A stretch of DNA of 64,000 nt, from assembly GCA_030446685.1 (NCBI GenBank), contig JAUJMV010000019.1, positions 56,736 to 120,735 of the forward strand. Direction: 5' to 3'. The notes under the pieces are model-generated. The model did not search any database. It saw only the letters and a program-made list of their open reading frames with translations, and was not told the origin of the DNA. Every line of letters begins with the position of its first letter. The first letter of the stretch is position 1. The translations under genes were made by a program, and so were the position numbers. Origin of the DNA: Thermomicrobiales bacterium (GTDB lineage: Bacteria; Chloroflexota; Chloroflexia; Thermomicrobiales; CADCWN01). This document shows positions 3,017 through 59,315 of the stretch, in pieces.

Positions 3017-3026
3017 TGAGGACGAA

Positions 3027-3140
3027 GGACTCAGGACTGAGGGCTGAGGACTGAGGACTGAGTGGGCTTGTCTCGTTCCACCATGGGAGATGAATGGCAG
3101 GGTCCTCCTTCGTCCTCAGTCCTGAGTCCTCAGTCCTTAG
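3027..3140. repeat. Inverted heptamer array (GGACTGA / TCCTCAG)
   Basis: Five GGACTSA-type heptamers at 3027-3061 face four TCCTSAG-type heptamers at 3113-3140 across about 50 bases. The arms are imperfect complements. The element fills the gap between the DUF5808-like gene and the M24 gene. Confidence 0.85.
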
Positions 3141-3158
3141 CGACGAAAGGAGCGCCCG

Positions 3159-32329: not shown

Positions 32330-32348
32330 GCCCCCTCCGGGAGTAGTG

Positions 32349-32453
32349 AGTGCTGAGTGCTGAGTGCTGAGTGCTGAGGCTTGTGAAGTCATAACCATCC
32401 CAGGGCGGAATGGCTCGATATTACTCAGCACTCAGCACTCAGCACTCAGCACT
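32349..32453. repeat. Inverted heptamer array (AGTGCTG x4), 30-bp perfect arms
   Basis: Left arm 32349-32378 is four AGTGCTG units plus AG. Right arm 32424-32453 is its exact reverse complement. The loop is 45 bases. The coaX stop codon (TGA, 32439-32441 on the minus strand) is inside the right arm. Confidence 0.92.
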
Positions 32454-33247
32454 ATTCAACTCGTACACCAGCCGCAGGCCGATCAGCGTCAGGTGCGGAT
32501 CGACCGTGTGGATCGCCCGCGTCTCGCTCGCAATGCGGTCGGCGAGGCCGCCGGTGGCGATCACCCGCGCGATCACCTGCGCCCGCCGCCCAGTTCCGCC
32601 TGGATGCGCGCGATGATCCCCTCGACCAGGCCGATGCGCGCGTAGCCGAAGACGATTCCTGATTGGAGGGCGTGGACTGTGTTCCGCCCGATCGCCCGCT
32701 CCGGCGCGCTCAGCGGCACCGTGAAGAGCCGCGCCCCGCGCCGGAAGATCGCGTCGGCGGCGACCTCGATGCCGGGTGCGATCGCCCCGCCGATGTAGTC
32801 GCCCGCCGCCGAGACGACATCGAAATTGGTGGCGGTGCCGAAATCAACGACGATCGCCGGGCCGCCGTAGAGGGCGAAGGCCGCCGCCGCGTTGACCACG
32901 CGGTCCGGCCCGGCCTCGCGCGGGTTGTCGATGGCGATCCGCACGCCGGGGGTCAGCCCGCTGACGGTCAGCGCCTCGCGACCGATGTAGCGCCGGGCGA
33001 TCTCGCTGAAGGTGTCCTGCACCCGCGGCACCGAAGATCCGATCACCACCCCGTCGATCGCCGCCAGGTCGAGGCCGCGCTGGGGCAGCAGCGTCAGCAG
33101 GCTCATCGCGTACTCATCGACGGTGCGGTTGCCGTCGGTCGCCAGCCGCCAGGTGCCGACCAACTCCACCCCGCGAAAGACCCCGAACGCGACGTTGGTG
33201 TTGCCGATGTCCAGCGCCAGCAGCGTCGTCGCCGTCGGCCGCCGCAC
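32439..33247 (-). CDS. coaX: Type III pantothenate kinase, frameshifted near the C-terminus
   Basis: Phosphorylates pantothenate, the first step of CoA synthesis, with an acetate-kinase-like fold. LALDIGNTN holds the phosphate-binding Asp, followed by [25 protein letters not shown] and [18 protein letters not shown]. The frame breaks near 32575; the tail [15 protein letters not shown]...[15 protein letters not shown] is in another frame and ends in the heptamer repeat as NSAEC. The GTG at 33247, with GAGGGTGG upstream, is preferred; an ATG at 33337 would add a low-complexity extension. Confidence 0.85.
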
Positions 33248-52833: not shown

Positions 52834-52926
52834 GCGCCCCCCCGGCCTCCTGACCTCGGGGAGAGAAGACGGCGGGAACGGCTCTGTGGCCCACTCCCCC
52901 AAGGCGGCTAGCGGGACGACTCGACC

Positions 52927-52953
52927 TTCTCCCCCAGAATTGGGGGGCCGGGG
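52927..52953. repeat. Palindromic C-run/G-run intergenic repeat, copy 2
   Basis: TTCTCCCCCAGAATTGGGGG then GCCGGGG, the same unit as at 684, 53001 and 59130. Confidence 0.7.
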
Positions 52954-53000
52954 CACTCCTTCCGCGCCTTCGCTCACCCTCGCCCTCCGCCCACCTTCCC

Positions 53001-53030
53001 TTCTCCCCCAAAGTTGGGGGGCCGGGGGGG
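53001..53030. repeat. Palindromic C-run/G-run intergenic repeat, copy 3
   Basis: TTCTCCCCCAAAGTTGGGGG then GCCGGGG. It ends about 10 bases before the -35 box of the histidine leader promoter. Confidence 0.7.
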
Positions 53031-53039
53031 CTGTCCCGC

Positions 53040-53068
53040 TTGCGTCTCGCCGCCCGATTCGCTATCCT
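53040..53068 (+). promoter_or_regulatory. Promoter of the histidine leader
   Basis: TTGCGT, a 17-base spacer and TATCCT. A start site seven bases later would fall on the ATG of the leader reading frame (53075), which would make the leader transcript nearly or fully leaderless. Confidence 0.5.
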
Positions 53069-53074
53069 AGCCCC

Positions 53075-53232
53075 ATGAACGATCTCGCGCCTTGCGCGCC
53101 CGTCGCCGGCCCGGCCCATCATCACCCGCTCCACCCCCACGCTGGTGGAGGCCAGGCACGTCCGCGCGGGCTGACGATCGCGCCAGGACGATCCGGGATT
53201 CCCACCGCACACACGGCGCGGTGGGCTTTTTT
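53075..53232 (+). promoter_or_regulatory. Putative histidine attenuator: His-rich leader peptide plus terminator
   Basis: An ATG at 53075 opens MNDLAPCAPVAGPA followed by HHHPLHPH (codons at 53117-53140), five His codons in eight. A GGTGG at 53144-53148 could pair with CCACC in the 5' arm of the terminator at 53201 and so act as part of an antiterminator. This is the layout of a his attenuator: ribosome stalling on scarce His-tRNA would free the downstream genes. As sequenced the frame stays open to 53257, past the terminator; an indel may hide the true stop. No T-box motif is seen. Confidence 0.6.
53201..53232 (+). terminator. Intrinsic terminator in the histidine leader
   Basis: CCCACCGC (53201-53208) pairs with GCGGTGGG (53218-53225), then C and six T. 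A T6 tract right after a GC stem is very rare in this window, which supports a regulatory role. Confidence 0.75.
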
Positions 53233-53324
53233 ATGCGCGACGAATCGGGGAGAGTGAGAACGTGACACGGTGAGCGAGCAGCAGCGCAGCTCCGGCACGG
53301 CCTGGGAATGGTCCCAGTCGCCAT

Positions 53325-53353
53325 TCCGCAATCCGCAATCCGCAATCCGCAAC
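53325..53353. repeat. Heptamer array (CGCAATC), single arm
   Basis: Three to four CGCAATC units just upstream of the HisRS-like gene. Same unit as the right arm at 1590-1624; no left arm here. Confidence 0.75.
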
Positions 53354-53369
53354 CGACCGGGTGCGCGGG

Positions 53370-54889
53370 ATGGCCGACGTCGGCCCGGCGGAACGGGCGT
53401 TCCGCGCGCGCCTCCTGGCCGACCTTGAGCGCCACTTCGCCGCGCACGGCTACCGCATGGTCGACACGCCGGTGGTCGAGGCGACCGAACTCTTCCTCCG
53501 CAAATCGGGCGAGGAGCGCGCGGCGCAGATGTACGCCTTCGAGTACCGCAACCGCCAGATCGCGCTGCGCCCCGAGTTCACCGCCTCGGTCGTCCGCGCC
53601 TACGTCGCCCAGTGGCAGGGCCTGCTGCTGCCGCTGCGCCTGGCCTACCACGGCCCGGTCTTCCGCTACGAGAAGCCCCAGGCCGGGCGCTCCCGCCAGT
53701 ACACCGAGGCCGGCGTCGAACTGCTCGGCGCCGCTGGCCCCGCCGCCGACGCCGAGGTGATCCACCTCGCGCTCGCCGGATTGGGAAACCCTCGGGCTGC
53801 GCGACTGCGCGCCGCGCCTCGGGCATCTCGGCGTCGTCGGCTTCCTCGACTCGCTGCCGCTCGACGAGCGCGTGCGCGACTGGTTCCTCTGGAGCATGGA
53901 GCTGCGCGCGCGCGGCGACGCCGGCCTGCACCGTGGCCTCCGCGCCCTGCTGCCCCCCGACGACGCGGCCGAGATCGCCGGCACGCCGGTCGGCGCGGCG
54001 CGAACGTTGACCCCATCGCCGACGCCGGCGCTCGCCGTGCCGTCGCTCGACGACCTCGACCTCGCCGGGATGAGCGATTGGCGTGCGCGCGCGACGGTGA
54101 CGAGCGTCTTGCGCGGCGTCGGCGTCGGCTCCGCGGCGGCAACCGCCCCCCGGAGGAGATCGTCGAGCGCCTGCTGCTGAAGCTGCGCCGCCCCCGCCTC
54201 CGGTTCGACTCGCGGCGGCGCTCGCCTTCCTGCGCCGGCTGGTCGCCCCTCCAGGGCGCGCCTGCGGCCGTCCTGCGCGATCTGCGCGCCCTGCTGGCCG
54301 ATTACCGCCTCGACCAATCCCCCGTCGCCGAACTGGAGGAAGTCCTGGCCCTCCCGCGCTCTACGGCCACGACGAGCGGATCACCCTTGACCTCGGCCTC
54401 GGGCGCGGCCTGCACTACTACACCGGCATCCTCTTCGAGGTCTACGACGGGCGGGACGGCCTGCAGCCCTGCGGCGCGGGGCGCTACGACGACCTGGCCC
54501 AAGTCCTCGGCGCGCGCGGCTCCGTCCCCGCCTCCGGCTTCACCTACGGCGTCGAGCGCCTGGCCTGGCCGGCCCTCGCGCGCGGCGCCCCTGCCCCCGA
54601 CCCCCCGCCGCCGACGTCCTCGTCTGCGGCGACCAGGGGCGACGATGGCCGACCTGATCCCGCTGGCCGAGGCGCTGCGCGGTGCCGGCTGGCGCGCTGG
54701 TTTCGACCTGCGCGGCGCGGCCTCGCCGCCAACCTCTCCCACGCCGACCGCACCCGCATCGCCCACGTCGCGATCCTCGGCGCGGCCGAGCGCGCCGCCG
54801 GCGTCGTCGCCTGGCGCACCTTCGCCACCCGCGCCGAGGAGCGCCTGCCCCTCACCGAACTGTTGAAGAGCGTGGAGCGTGAAGCGTAG
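53370..54889 (+). CDS. hisZ: HisRS-like protein (HisZ or histidyl-tRNA synthetase), multiply frameshifted
   Basis: Class II synthetase-type protein. Motif 1 region LLADLERHFAAHGYRMVDTP; motif 2 YHGPVFRYEKPQAGRSRQYTE; then GRGLHYYTGILFEVYDG, CGAGRYDDLAQVLG and FTYGVERLAWPALARG. A C-terminal anticodon-binding-like domain (MADLIPLAEALRGAGWRAGFDLRG...HVAILG) ends LLKSVEREA inside a heptamer array. HisZ, the regulatory partner of short HisG, usually lacks this last domain, so a true or recent HisS paralog is possible. At least five frameshifts. Place just before hisG favours a histidine-related role. Confidence 0.75.
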
Positions 54890-54963
54890 AGCGAGGGATG
54901 AAGGATGGCTGAGCGTCGTGCCGAAGGGCAAACCGCTCCACGCTCCACGCTCCACGCTCCACG
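54868..54963. repeat. Inverted heptamer array (GAGCGTG / CTCCACG)
   Basis: Four heptamers at 54868-54895 (GAGCGTG, GAGCGTG, AAGCGTA, GAGCGAG) face four CTCCACG units at 54936-54963. The stop codon of the HisRS-like gene (TAG, 54887-54889) is within the left arm. hisG starts 22 bases after the right arm. Confidence 0.9.
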
Positions 54964-54984
54964 TTTGTTAGAAAGGCGGCGACG

Positions 54985-56131
54985 ATGACCAACAGCAGCG
55001 ATCCCCTCCGGCTGGCGATCCCAGCAAGGGCGAGTTCGAGGCCGACACCCGGCGCTCCTCGACAGCGCCGGCCTCCCGTGCGCCGCCCGAACCCCGGCAG
55101 TACACCGGGCGCGTCGGCAGCCCCGACACCGTCGTCCTCTTCCAGCGCACCGCCGACATCGTCGCCAAGGTCGCCGACGGCGGCGTGGACATCGGCATCA
55201 CCGGCTCCGACCTCGTCGCCGAGTACTGTCAGGACGAGCCCGACGTCCTTCTCCTCCTGCCACGGCTCGGGTTCCGCGCCAGCCGCCTGGTCGTCGCCGT
55301 CCCCACCGCCTGGCTCGACGTGACCACGCTGGAGGACTTGGCCGACCTCGCGGTCGACTTCAAGCGCCGGGGCCGCGCGCTGCGCGTGGTGACCAAGTTC
55401 CCCAACCTCGTGCGCGATTTCTTCTACCGCCACGGCAACGTCACCTACTTCACCCTCGTCCAGGCCGAGGGCGCGCTGGAGGCCGCCCCCACGATGGGCT
55501 ACGCCGACCTGATCGTCGACATCACCGAGACCGGCGTCACCCTGCGCGACAACCACCCTCAAGATCCTCGACGGCGGGACGGTCCTCGAGTCCCAGGCGT
55601 GCCTGATCGGCAACCGCACCCTCGCCGCCGGCGCCGCCAAGCGCCCCTGCGGCCGTGCTCGAACTCTGCGAGGCGCGGCTGCGCGCCCACGACTACCGGA
55701 CGATCACCGCCAACGTCCGCGGCCCCTCCGAGGAGGCGGTGGCCCGGCACGTCATGGCCCAGGTCGAGACCGCCGGGATGCAGGGGCCGACCGTCTCGCG
55801 CGTCTTCTCCAAGCACCCCAATGGCGCCGCCGAGGGCTGGTACGCCGTCACGCTGGCGGTCGAGTCGCGCCTGCTGCTGCGCGCGATCGACCACCTGCGT
55901 CGCTCCGGCGCGTCGAGCATCACGGTCGTCCGCCCCGACTACGTCTCCGAGGCCCACTCGTCGGCCTACACGACGCTGCTGTCGGAGTTGGGGATCGCCC
56001 CCGCCCCCCACCCCCGCCCCCGCATTCGGGTCTATCCCCGACAGGACGAAGGGAGATGCCGCGCGACTCGCTCGCCGGCCGGCCGGCTGGGGCGAGAGTT
56101 TGATCGTGCGGAACCAGCCCACCCACCCTGA
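54985..56131 (+). CDS. hisG: ATP phosphoribosyltransferase HisG, long form, frameshifted
   Basis: First enzyme of histidine synthesis, joining ATP and PRPP. The catalytic domains have DTVVLFQRTADIVAKVADGG, VDIGITGSDLVAEY, FPNLVRDFF and the PRPP site EGALEAAPTMGYADLIVDI. The C-terminal ACT-like regulatory domain is present (YRTITANVRGPSEEAVARHV, GMQGPTVSRVF, WYAVTLAVESRLLLRAIDHLRR), so this is the long form, normally active without HisZ. Breaks lie near 55020-55110, 55558 and 55640. The last 45 residues are unusual and the stop may be wrong. Confidence 0.87.
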
Positions 56132-56269: not shown

Positions 56270-57589
56270 ATGCGCGTCATCACCGACCTTGACGAGGCCC
56301 GGCGGACGATCCTGGCGCGCCGGCCGCCCGAGGAGGCGACCCTGCCGCCCCGGATGCGCGAGGGGGTCCGGCGCATCTTCGGCGCCGATCTGAGCGCGGC
56401 GGAGGTCGTGGGGCGCATCCTGGCCGATGTGCGGCGCGAGGGGGACGCGGCGCTCCTCCGCTACACCGAGGCGCTCGACGGCGCGCGCCTCGAAAATCTG
56501 CTCGTCACCGAGGACGAGATCGCGGCCGGGCTGGCGCGGACGGCCCCCGAGGTGGTCGCGGCGCTGCGGACCGCCGCCGCCGAGATCGAGGCGTTCCACC
56601 GGCGGCAACTGCGGCAGAGCTGGCTCGCCTTCGAGGCGCACGGCACGCTCGGCCAGGCGATCCGCCCCCTGGCGCGGGTCGGCCTCTACGCGCCGGGCGG
56701 CAGCGCCGTCTACCCCTCGTCCCTGCTGATGAGCGCGATCCTCGCGCGCGTCGCGGGGTCGAGGAGATCATCGTCGCCACGCCGCCGGGGCGCGACGGCG
56801 CGTCCCCCCGCGATCCTGGCCGCCGCGCACGTCGCCGGCGTCCACACCATCGTCAAGGCCGGCGGCGCGCAGGCGATCGGCGCGCTCGCCTACGGCACCG
56901 CCAGCGTGCCGCGCGTCGACAAGATCCTCGGGCCGGGCAACATCTTCGTCACCCTGGCGAAGGAGCGCGTCTTCGGCCTGGTCGACATCGACGCCCTCCA
57001 GGGGCCGACCGAGACCCTCCTCGTCGCCGACGACGCGGCCAACCCCGGCCTCGCCGCCGCCGACCTCCTGGCGCAGGCCGAGCACGACCCGATGGCCTCC
57101 GCGATCCTCCTGACCCCCTCCGCCGCCCTCGCCGCGCGTGCGCCGCGCCATCGAGGAGCAATTGCCCGCCCTCTCCCGCCGCGACGTGATCGCCGCCTCG
57201 CTGGCCGCGAACGGCGGCATCGTCGTCGTGCCGGACCTCGCGACCGCGATCGAGCCTGGCGAACGCCTACGCCCCTGAGCACCTCTGCCTGCTGGTGCGC
57301 GACCCGCTGGCCCTGGTCGGCCTGGTCCGCAACGCCGGAGGCATCTTCCTCGGCGAGGCCAGCGCCGAGGTCATGGGCGACTACGTCGCCGGCCCCAGCC
57401 ACATCATGCCGACTGCCGGCACCGCGCGCTTCTCCCCCCTCAACGTCGAGGAGTTCGTCAAAGTCATCAGCCTGATCGGCCTCAACGACCGGGGGCTGCG
57501 CCCTCGGCCCCGCCGCCGTCGCCCTGGCCGAGTGCGAGGGCTTCACCGCCCACGCCGCCGCCGTCCGCCGCCGCCTGGCGCAGAGTTGA
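56270..57589 (+). CDS. hisD: Histidinol dehydrogenase, multiply frameshifted
   Basis: Last two steps of histidine synthesis, histidinol to histidine, zinc enzyme using NAD. Parts: [59 protein letters not shown], the zinc-site [25 protein letters not shown], and [22 protein letters not shown]. At least four single-base breaks (about 56760, 57135, 57255, 57500) fall in GC runs. The reconstructed protein is full length with all zinc ligands, so the gene is probably intact in the organism. Confidence 0.9.
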
Positions 57590-58943
57590 GGGCGAGACGA
57601 TGGGACCACAAAGGCACAAAGACCACAAAGGACACAAAGGACGAATCGAAGGTTGAGGGTTCAAGAACAAGAGATCGCGCTCTTCTCTGTGTCCTCTGTG
57701 GTCTTTGTGCCTTTGTGGTTGATCCATTCCCGCACCGCTGCCGCGCAAGGTAGAACGCCTCCGGCGGCGTCACCGTCGCCATGAAGCCGACATAACGGCC
57801 CAGGAACGCGCTGTCCGTCAGCGTGCGCCCGAGATAAGCGCCCCAGGCCCTGCGCGTCAACGCCGCCGGCGGTCGGTCGCAGGTGAAGTCGTAGAGCGGC
57901 CGCACCAGGGCGTCTCGCCCCGCCCAATACGCGGCGAGCGCGTCGTGCCACCTCGCCTCGCCCCGCAGGGCGCGGTCGAGGGCCGCCGCCAGGGCCTCCC
58001 CCGAGCGCAGCGCGTCGGCGATCCCGCGCCCGGTGATCGGGTCGCGGTGGTAGCCCGCGTCGCCGGCGAGCGCCCAGCCGGGGCCGAACGGCACGCGGAA
58101 GAAGTTGGTCAGGTCGCCCGCGCCGCGCGCCGGGCCGAGCCGCTCCGCCCCCGCCAGCCGCCCCGCCAGCCCCGCCTTGCGCGCGATCGCCGCGTCGATC
58201 GCCCGCTCGTGGTCGCGCCGGACCCGCGCGAACTCCGCCTGCGGGAAGGAGACCGCCAGCGTCCAGACCCCGCCATCGCCGGGGAAGAGATAGCAGAAGC
58301 TTCCCTCGGCGTCGCGGAACGCCTCCAGCGTCGGCTCGCCGATCGGCGCCACGCCGCGGTAGTAGCGGTAGTAGGTCGCGAGGAGCGGCGGCACGACATC
58401 GTACTCCGCCGCATTCACCAGCCGCGCCACCGTCGAGTGCCGCCCGTCCGCCCCGACCACCACGCGCGCCCGCTCCTCGACCCGCCCGCCCGCGCCGCGC
58501 CGGCCCCCGCGCACCCCCACCACCGCCCCGCCATCCCGCAGCAGCCCCTCGACGACGAACCCCTCGCGCACCTCGACCGTCGGCTGTCGCCGCGCCCGTC
58601 GCACCAGGATGTCATCCAGCACCGTGCGCCGGATGCTCATCAGCGGCGGATAGCCGTCCCGCGTCGGGATCGCCGCCTCGTTCGTCCGGTCGCCGAACGC
58701 CAGCCGCATCCGCCCGATCGCCGGCGCCCCGACCTCCCGCACCTCCCCCAGCACCCCCAGCCGGTCGAACGCCCCCAGCGCGTCCGACCAGAGCAGGTGC
58801 GTCGACAGGGTGTCGCTCGGGAAGCGCGCGGCGTCCAGCAGCAGCACCCGCCAGCCCCGCGCCGCCAGCCCCAGCGCCGTCGCGCCCCCGCCCATCCGCG
58901 CCCCCACGACGATCGCGTCGAAGCGGCCCGCCCTCTCTTTCAT
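57543..58943 (-). CDS. FAD-dependent oxidoreductase, geranylgeranyl-reductase-like
   Basis: A flavoprotein of the p-hydroxybenzoate hydroxylase fold. It starts [20 protein letters not shown] (FAD loop), has [16 protein letters not shown] and the second FAD motif [26 protein letters not shown]. After about 405 residues (FYLARQRCG) the frame runs through the inverted repeat at 57606-57718 ([14 protein letters not shown]...) and into the antisense of hisD, a 62-residue tail that is unlikely to be original. It sits between hisD and hisC on the other strand. Substrate unknown. Confidence 0.85.
57606..57718. repeat. Inverted nonamer array (CACAAAGGA / CTTTGTG), 35-bp arms
   Basis: Left arm 57606-57640 (CACAAAGG-type units of 8-9 bases) and right arm 57684-57718 are reverse complements with two mismatches. 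The element is inside the open frame of the FAD oxidoreductase and starts 17 bases after the hisD stop. Confidence 0.88.
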
Positions 58944-59129
58944 CTACTCCCCGTCTCACCCTTGGCGGCTCCCCTACGCAAAGTATAGCCGCCGGGAGGC
59001 GCCCCCCGGCCCCCCCATCCCGGGGGGAGAGGACCGGTGTGGTTTGCGTGTCCGTTGGTGGCGCGGGCGGTCCAGGGAAGTTACCAGATCCATTGGTCGT
59101 CGAGGTACGCCACCCGGTCAATCCTCGGC

Positions 59130-59160
59130 TTCTCCCCCCAGTATTGGGGGGCCGGGGGGC
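59130..59160. repeat. Palindromic C-run/G-run intergenic repeat, copy 4
   Basis: TTCTCCCCCCAGTATTGGGG then GGCCGGGG. A related C/G-run hairpin is at about 58999-59035. Both lie in the 370-base gap between the FAD oxidoreductase and hisC, which otherwise holds a TAAAAT box at 59237 that may be the -10 of the hisC promoter. Confidence 0.7.
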
Positions 59161-59315
59161 GCCCCTCCCGCCCTTCCCCCCGGTTCAGCGGCCGGGGGGG
59201 CCGTCCCCCGCGGCGGGCGCGTCCTGGGGCGCGTGGTAAAATAGCCCATCGCGCCTGCGCCGGCTGGCGTGGGGAACTGATGCCGATAACGTGCGGGGAG
59301 GCTGGCAGGGGCGCG

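Follow-up and report, generated by a model that had tools for sequence, protein, structure and literature searches.

Does the short His-rich reading frame upstream of the histidine genes in this draft genome encode the leader peptide of a transcription attenuator? The window (within G000:C45) is the whole stretch of DNA that we analyzed, 64 kb in length, and it comes from a 7.0-Mb draft genome. With named relatives as a guide, this genome belongs to the order Thermomicrobiales, so the original prediction of a Chloroflexota origin was right. The same prediction placed a promoter, a His-rich frame, and a GC-rich hairpin followed by T6 at 53040-53232, and all of these are present there. It also called HisRS-like, hisG, and hisD genes downstream, which we identify as hisZ-hisG-hisD. 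We propose that the region is very probably a ribosome-mediated transcription attenuator, in which case hisZ-hisG-hisD would respond to charged tRNA-His. We favor this reading because the promoter, the His codons at positions 15-17, and the terminator arms are all kept in a related genome, AVDCRST_MAG18 (G001; "the relative" below), despite the divergence between them. The features of the locus are:

53040 to 53068, + strand: promoter, TTGCGT-N17-TATCCT, with the same hexamers and 17-nt spacer in the relative
53075 to 53257, + strand: leader ORF as sequenced, 60 codons, with His at codons 15-17, 20, and 22; its counterpart in the relative has 31 amino acids
53117 to 53140, + strand: putative regulatory His codons, CAT CAT CAC and then two more CAC; CATCATCAY at codons 15-17 is kept in the relative
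53129 to 53135, + strand: segment 1, CTCCACC, which pairs with 53144-53150 in a 7-bp hairpin when the fold includes no stalled ribosome
53141 to 53150, + strand: segment 2, GCTGGTGGAG, whose partner in the folds is either segment 1 or the terminator 5' arm
53159 to 53190, + strand: intervening hairpin, which in the antiterminator fold places segments 2 and 3 next to each other; the hairpin in the relative's folds is comparable, not identical
53201 to 53208, + strand: segment 3, the terminator 5' arm, invariant in the relative
53218 to 53232, + strand: segment 4, the terminator 3' arm, followed by C and T6
53343 to 54862, + strand: hisZ, a HisRS-like regulatory subunit of ATP-PRT, with at least 3 frame changes in the assembly and an intact orthologue in the relative
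54985 to 56005, + strand: hisG, frameshifted in the assembly
56270 to 57475, + strand: hisD, whose frame agrees with the family over the first ~250 codons

Across both strands of the 64 kb, only one His cluster attains 5 or more in 8 codons, and our own scorer calls only one strong terminator. The two are at most 150 nt apart and lie directly upstream of hisZ. An automated scan called neither the promoter nor the terminator because it uses different criteria (a hexamer score, and a loop of at most 8 nt, where the loop here has 9).

AVDCRST_MAG18 is also from the Thermomicrobiales, and among the 61 searchable genomes of this order it is the one other member of the window genome's family. Its element, on contig CADCWN010000223.1, was found by scanning for a His cluster with a terminator, independently of any similarity to the window's leader. 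Upstream of its hisZ are TTGCGT-N17-TATCCT, an ATG, the peptide MEHFAPSAPFAAVPHHHRPHGRCVVPRARIR ending in a stop codon, and the terminator GGTCCCACCGC-N9-GCGGTGGGCTTTTTG. From the ATG to the terminator, the two sequences align without gaps. Identity is 35/51 (69%) across codons 1-17, 18/42 (43%) across codons 18-31, and 10/33 (30%) in the spacer, and it is complete in the 8-nt terminator arms. The His pattern (HHHxxHxH in the window versus HHHxxH in the relative) is a run of codons for the operon's own amino acid. The element is known from two sequences, too few for the formal covariation analysis that the original prediction recommended.

The original prediction's own concern was that the leader frame overruns the terminator. 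As sequenced, this is true: the frame MNDLAPCAPVAGPAHHHPLHPH, with His codons at 53117, 53120, 53123, 53132, and 53138, ends at 53257. The relative's leader ORF ends 30 nt before CCCACCGC and is closed ahead of the terminator, whereas the window's frame is not. The relative's leader peptide is complete, at 31 amino acids, which goes far to answer this concern, but the window's frame as sequenced still counts against an attenuator. As for the window, a TGA at 53172-53174 sits one frame away from the leader frame. An assembly indel in the window's leader is plausible, because hisZ and hisG (53343-56005) have at least 6 frame changes in ~2.7 kb when compared to the relative's intact genes. These changes may reflect either a damaged assembly or damaged genes. 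The genes beside the leader have about 2 frameshifts per kb, and we estimate the chance of an indel in the 97 nt of the window's leader at roughly one in five. A one-base shift past the His codons would lead to a stop at TGA 53172 and a peptide of ~32 residues, versus 31 in the relative. Given such an indel, the window's leader ORF may end near 53172-53174.

The unclosed frame also bears on the idea that the His-rich stretch arose by chance, in an unused frame beside the ordinary terminator of an upstream gene. The window's frame is open far upstream of the leader as well as beyond the terminator, and long open frames are common in GC-rich DNA. However, in the relative the promoter, ATG, His codons, and terminator have the same spacings as in the window, and the ORF is closed. 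Also, the terminator is unique to the his locus in both genomes. We think that a chance arrangement is very unlikely.

If the region is an attenuator, where would translation of the leader begin? The -35 box (TTGCGT) is at 53040-53045 and, after a 17-nt spacer, the -10 box (TATCCT) is at 53063-53068. The leader's ATG, at 53075, is 6 nt past the -10 box; in the relative it is 7 nt past. Put another way, the first T of TATCCT is at -12 relative to the ATG in the window and at -13 in the relative. Just as had been predicted, the window's ATG sits at the expected start of transcription. The conserved gap of 6 or 7 nt fits leaderless translation. Transcription would start at or next to the ATG, so the mRNA of the leader peptide is probably leaderless. 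In a survey of leaderless genes, they were present in 4 of 12 Chloroflexi genomes.

The terminator (53201-53225) is CCCACCGC-N9-GCGGTGGG and is followed by C and T6. A segment that can pair with a terminator arm was part of the original prediction, and folding the leaders in alternative states supports it: we found competing pairings in silico in both genomes, with moderate significance. To represent a stalled ribosome, we placed the A site on codons 15-17, assumed a 12-nt downstream footprint, and ended the RNA at the terminator 5' arm. In both genomes, with a stall at His15-17 and no 3' arm, the 5' arm pairs with the segment just beyond the footprint. CCACCGC pairs with GC.GGTGG in the window, and CACCG pairs with CGGTG, plus neighbors, in the relative. 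We then shuffled the intervening RNA and scored how strongly the arm pairs with the first 16 nt left free. For stalls at codons 15-17, the shuffles that matched or beat the real pairing were 1.5-7% for the window and 0.5-1.3% for the relative. This is a moderate result per genome, and GC-rich RNA folds promiscuously. A stall at codon 20 or beyond covers segment 2.

In the window's folds with no ribosome, segment 2 pairs with CTCCACC, which is upstream at the His codons. In the relative, segment 2 pairs with a sequence that contains His codons in folds that begin at nt 30 or that run up to segment 2, and in folds of the whole leader its partners are mixed. The segment that could undo the terminator tends, in these folds, to pair upstream if there is no stall and to be free upon a stall at His15-17. 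In every fold that includes the 3' arm, the terminator is more stable than the alternative. Antitermination therefore has to be kinetic, as it is in known attenuators.

We propose that if His-tRNA is ample, then the ribosome would clear the His codons, and segment 2 would be either held by segment 1 or covered. With segment 2 occupied, the terminator would form and transcription would end. If His-tRNA is scarce, then the ribosome would stall at His15-17 and disrupt segment 1. The freed segment 2 would pair with the terminator 5' arm, and RNA polymerase would continue into hisZ.

Another explanation is that the leader encodes a functional His-rich peptide, which might bind metal, for instance, and that the terminator is incidental. 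The changes in codons 2-17 between the two genomes are 7, 2, and 7 by codon position, and the few second-position changes are a weak signal in favor of this. But the second half of the peptide is unconserved, and the location ahead of his genes and the competing pairings suit attenuation better, so a functional peptide seems highly improbable. It is also hard to credit that the leader acts on the translation of hisZ or on Rho-dependent termination, instead of on the intrinsic terminator. Variants of that sort have been considered for actinobacterial cys and leu leaders (PMC1262725), but here the leader is separated from hisZ by a conserved intrinsic terminator whose 5' arm is itself the competing segment. 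Least probable of all is control by a T-box or by some other riboswitch that binds tRNA or a ligand: the relative does have a T-box upstream of trpE (L160 3089-3383, - strand; RF00230, E = 4e-17, with 81 bits against an Rfam gathering score of 93), but no Rfam family reaches its gathering score in the window, RF00230 has no match there, at E up to 10 the leader region has unrelated matches at chance level and nothing else, and the leader is short and lacks a T-box motif.

Returning to the attenuator, the genes that it would control are distinct from the tRNA synthetase, as a separate true hisS is located elsewhere in both genomes. HisZ of this Thermomicrobiales family (L036 3914-5497) has kept the anticodon-binding domain and scores above the cut-off of the hisS model as well as that of the hisZ model.

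We also noticed several kinds of repeats in the window and in related genomes. Some intergenic hairpins have arms that consist of 7-nt repeats in tandem: they lie at 1494-1629, 3019-3142, 32341-32456, and 54868-54967 of the window, and also in spacers in L160, L162, and L168. The heptad differs at each place. Related genomes of other families have similar heptad runs (L181 and L182), and we found no report of heptad-repeat hairpins in Chloroflexi in the literature that we searched. A heptad run of CCGCAAT at 53321-53356, between the terminator and hisZ, has no partner arm and is absent from the relative. Repeats of the form CTCCCCCAnnnTTGGGGGGCCGGGG are at 52924-53031 and 58998-59163, and two of these are directly upstream of the attenuator's promoter. 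Finally, an inverted repeat of the ACCACAAAGGCACAAAG type lies downstream of hisD (57605-57719).

How widespread is the element? The window's genome and the relative each have a single copy of the terminator pattern and the order's other 59 genomes have none, which sets it apart from a common repeat. We searched for hisG in the 61 genomes and, wherever the contig extended far enough, inspected the sequence upstream; we found no other His cluster with a terminator. Nor is there such a leader upstream of hisZ in the order's other families (f2 to f5), where that region is readable. At hisG, there was no convincing His leader in 44 loci of named genomes, or in 26 further genomes of the class with 1.5 kb on each side. 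We consider the matches in L108 and L194 to be due to chance; the one in L194 is at the end of another coding frame. A covariance model built from the two leaders and run on 158 genomes of the class gave strong scores only in its two training genomes. The next seven matches had at most 3 His in 8 codons where scored, and the best of them (G119, 30.5 bits) has neither a His run nor a terminator. Comparison with relatives, which the original prediction had recommended, turned up this arrangement in AVDCRST_MAG18, where the leader ORF is closed, and no instance outside of one family. We found the element in a single family, and it is not typical of Chloroflexota.

Leader-peptide attenuation of his genes in Chloroflexota was not reported in the literature that we searched, which did not cover a review on attenuation in many phyla (10.1134/S0026893310010164). 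If our reading is correct, then control of amino acid synthesis by leader peptides extends to this phylum, and one family relies on a leader peptide to control his and on a T-box to control trp. We saw no leader peptides upstream of leuA or ilvB in either genome or upstream of trpE in the relative. The element would also imply that an uncultured lineage couples transcription to translation, and because its leader peptide would have no ribosome-binding site, it offers a way to test what ribosome loading at the 5' end does in attenuation. We would call it an even bet that a leaderless His attenuator arose within this one Thermomicrobiales family (which has a T-box for trp), independently of the proteobacterial and Firmicutes ones, and that the timing of the coupling is set by ribosomes that load at the bare 5' end with no Shine-Dalgarno sequence.

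Among known systems, the enterobacterial his leader (RF00514) also has a His-rich leader peptide, alternative pairings, and an intrinsic terminator ahead of his genes. It differs in that here the start is likely leaderless and the first gene is hisZ, and RF00514 finds no match in the window, whether at its gathering score or with E allowed up to 10. Proteobacteria and three groups of Firmicutes have known His leader peptides (PMC2965389, PMC9413887). In bacilli they were described ahead of hisZ and hisS* (PMC2965389), and the Bacillus cereus group, Peptostreptococcaceae, and Erysipelotrichales have them at his operons (PMC9413887). For his, no leader peptides turned up in a 2005 survey of Actinobacteria (PMC1262725). 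The Firmicutes leaders share a run of His codons, a terminator, and an antiterminator with ours, and in bacilli they are also at hisZ. They are from another phylum, however, a leaderless start is not described in the available parts of those papers, and the likeness that we describe is one of anatomy. The trpE T-box in the relative is likewise a terminator-based leader of an amino acid operon, and from the same family, but a T-box senses tRNA by binding it directly, with no leader peptide involved. In Sinorhizobium meliloti, the first nucleotides of the trpL transcript are the ATG of its leader ORF (PMC7298713). This is another case of transcription attenuation with a leader ORF at the 5' end, although it senses Trp and is from the Alphaproteobacteria. 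The Thermomicrobiales element, whose function is putative, fits the classical ribosome-mediated kind of attenuator on its anatomy. The novelty lies in the phylum, in the limitation to one family, and in how the features are combined; the proposed mechanism itself is classical.
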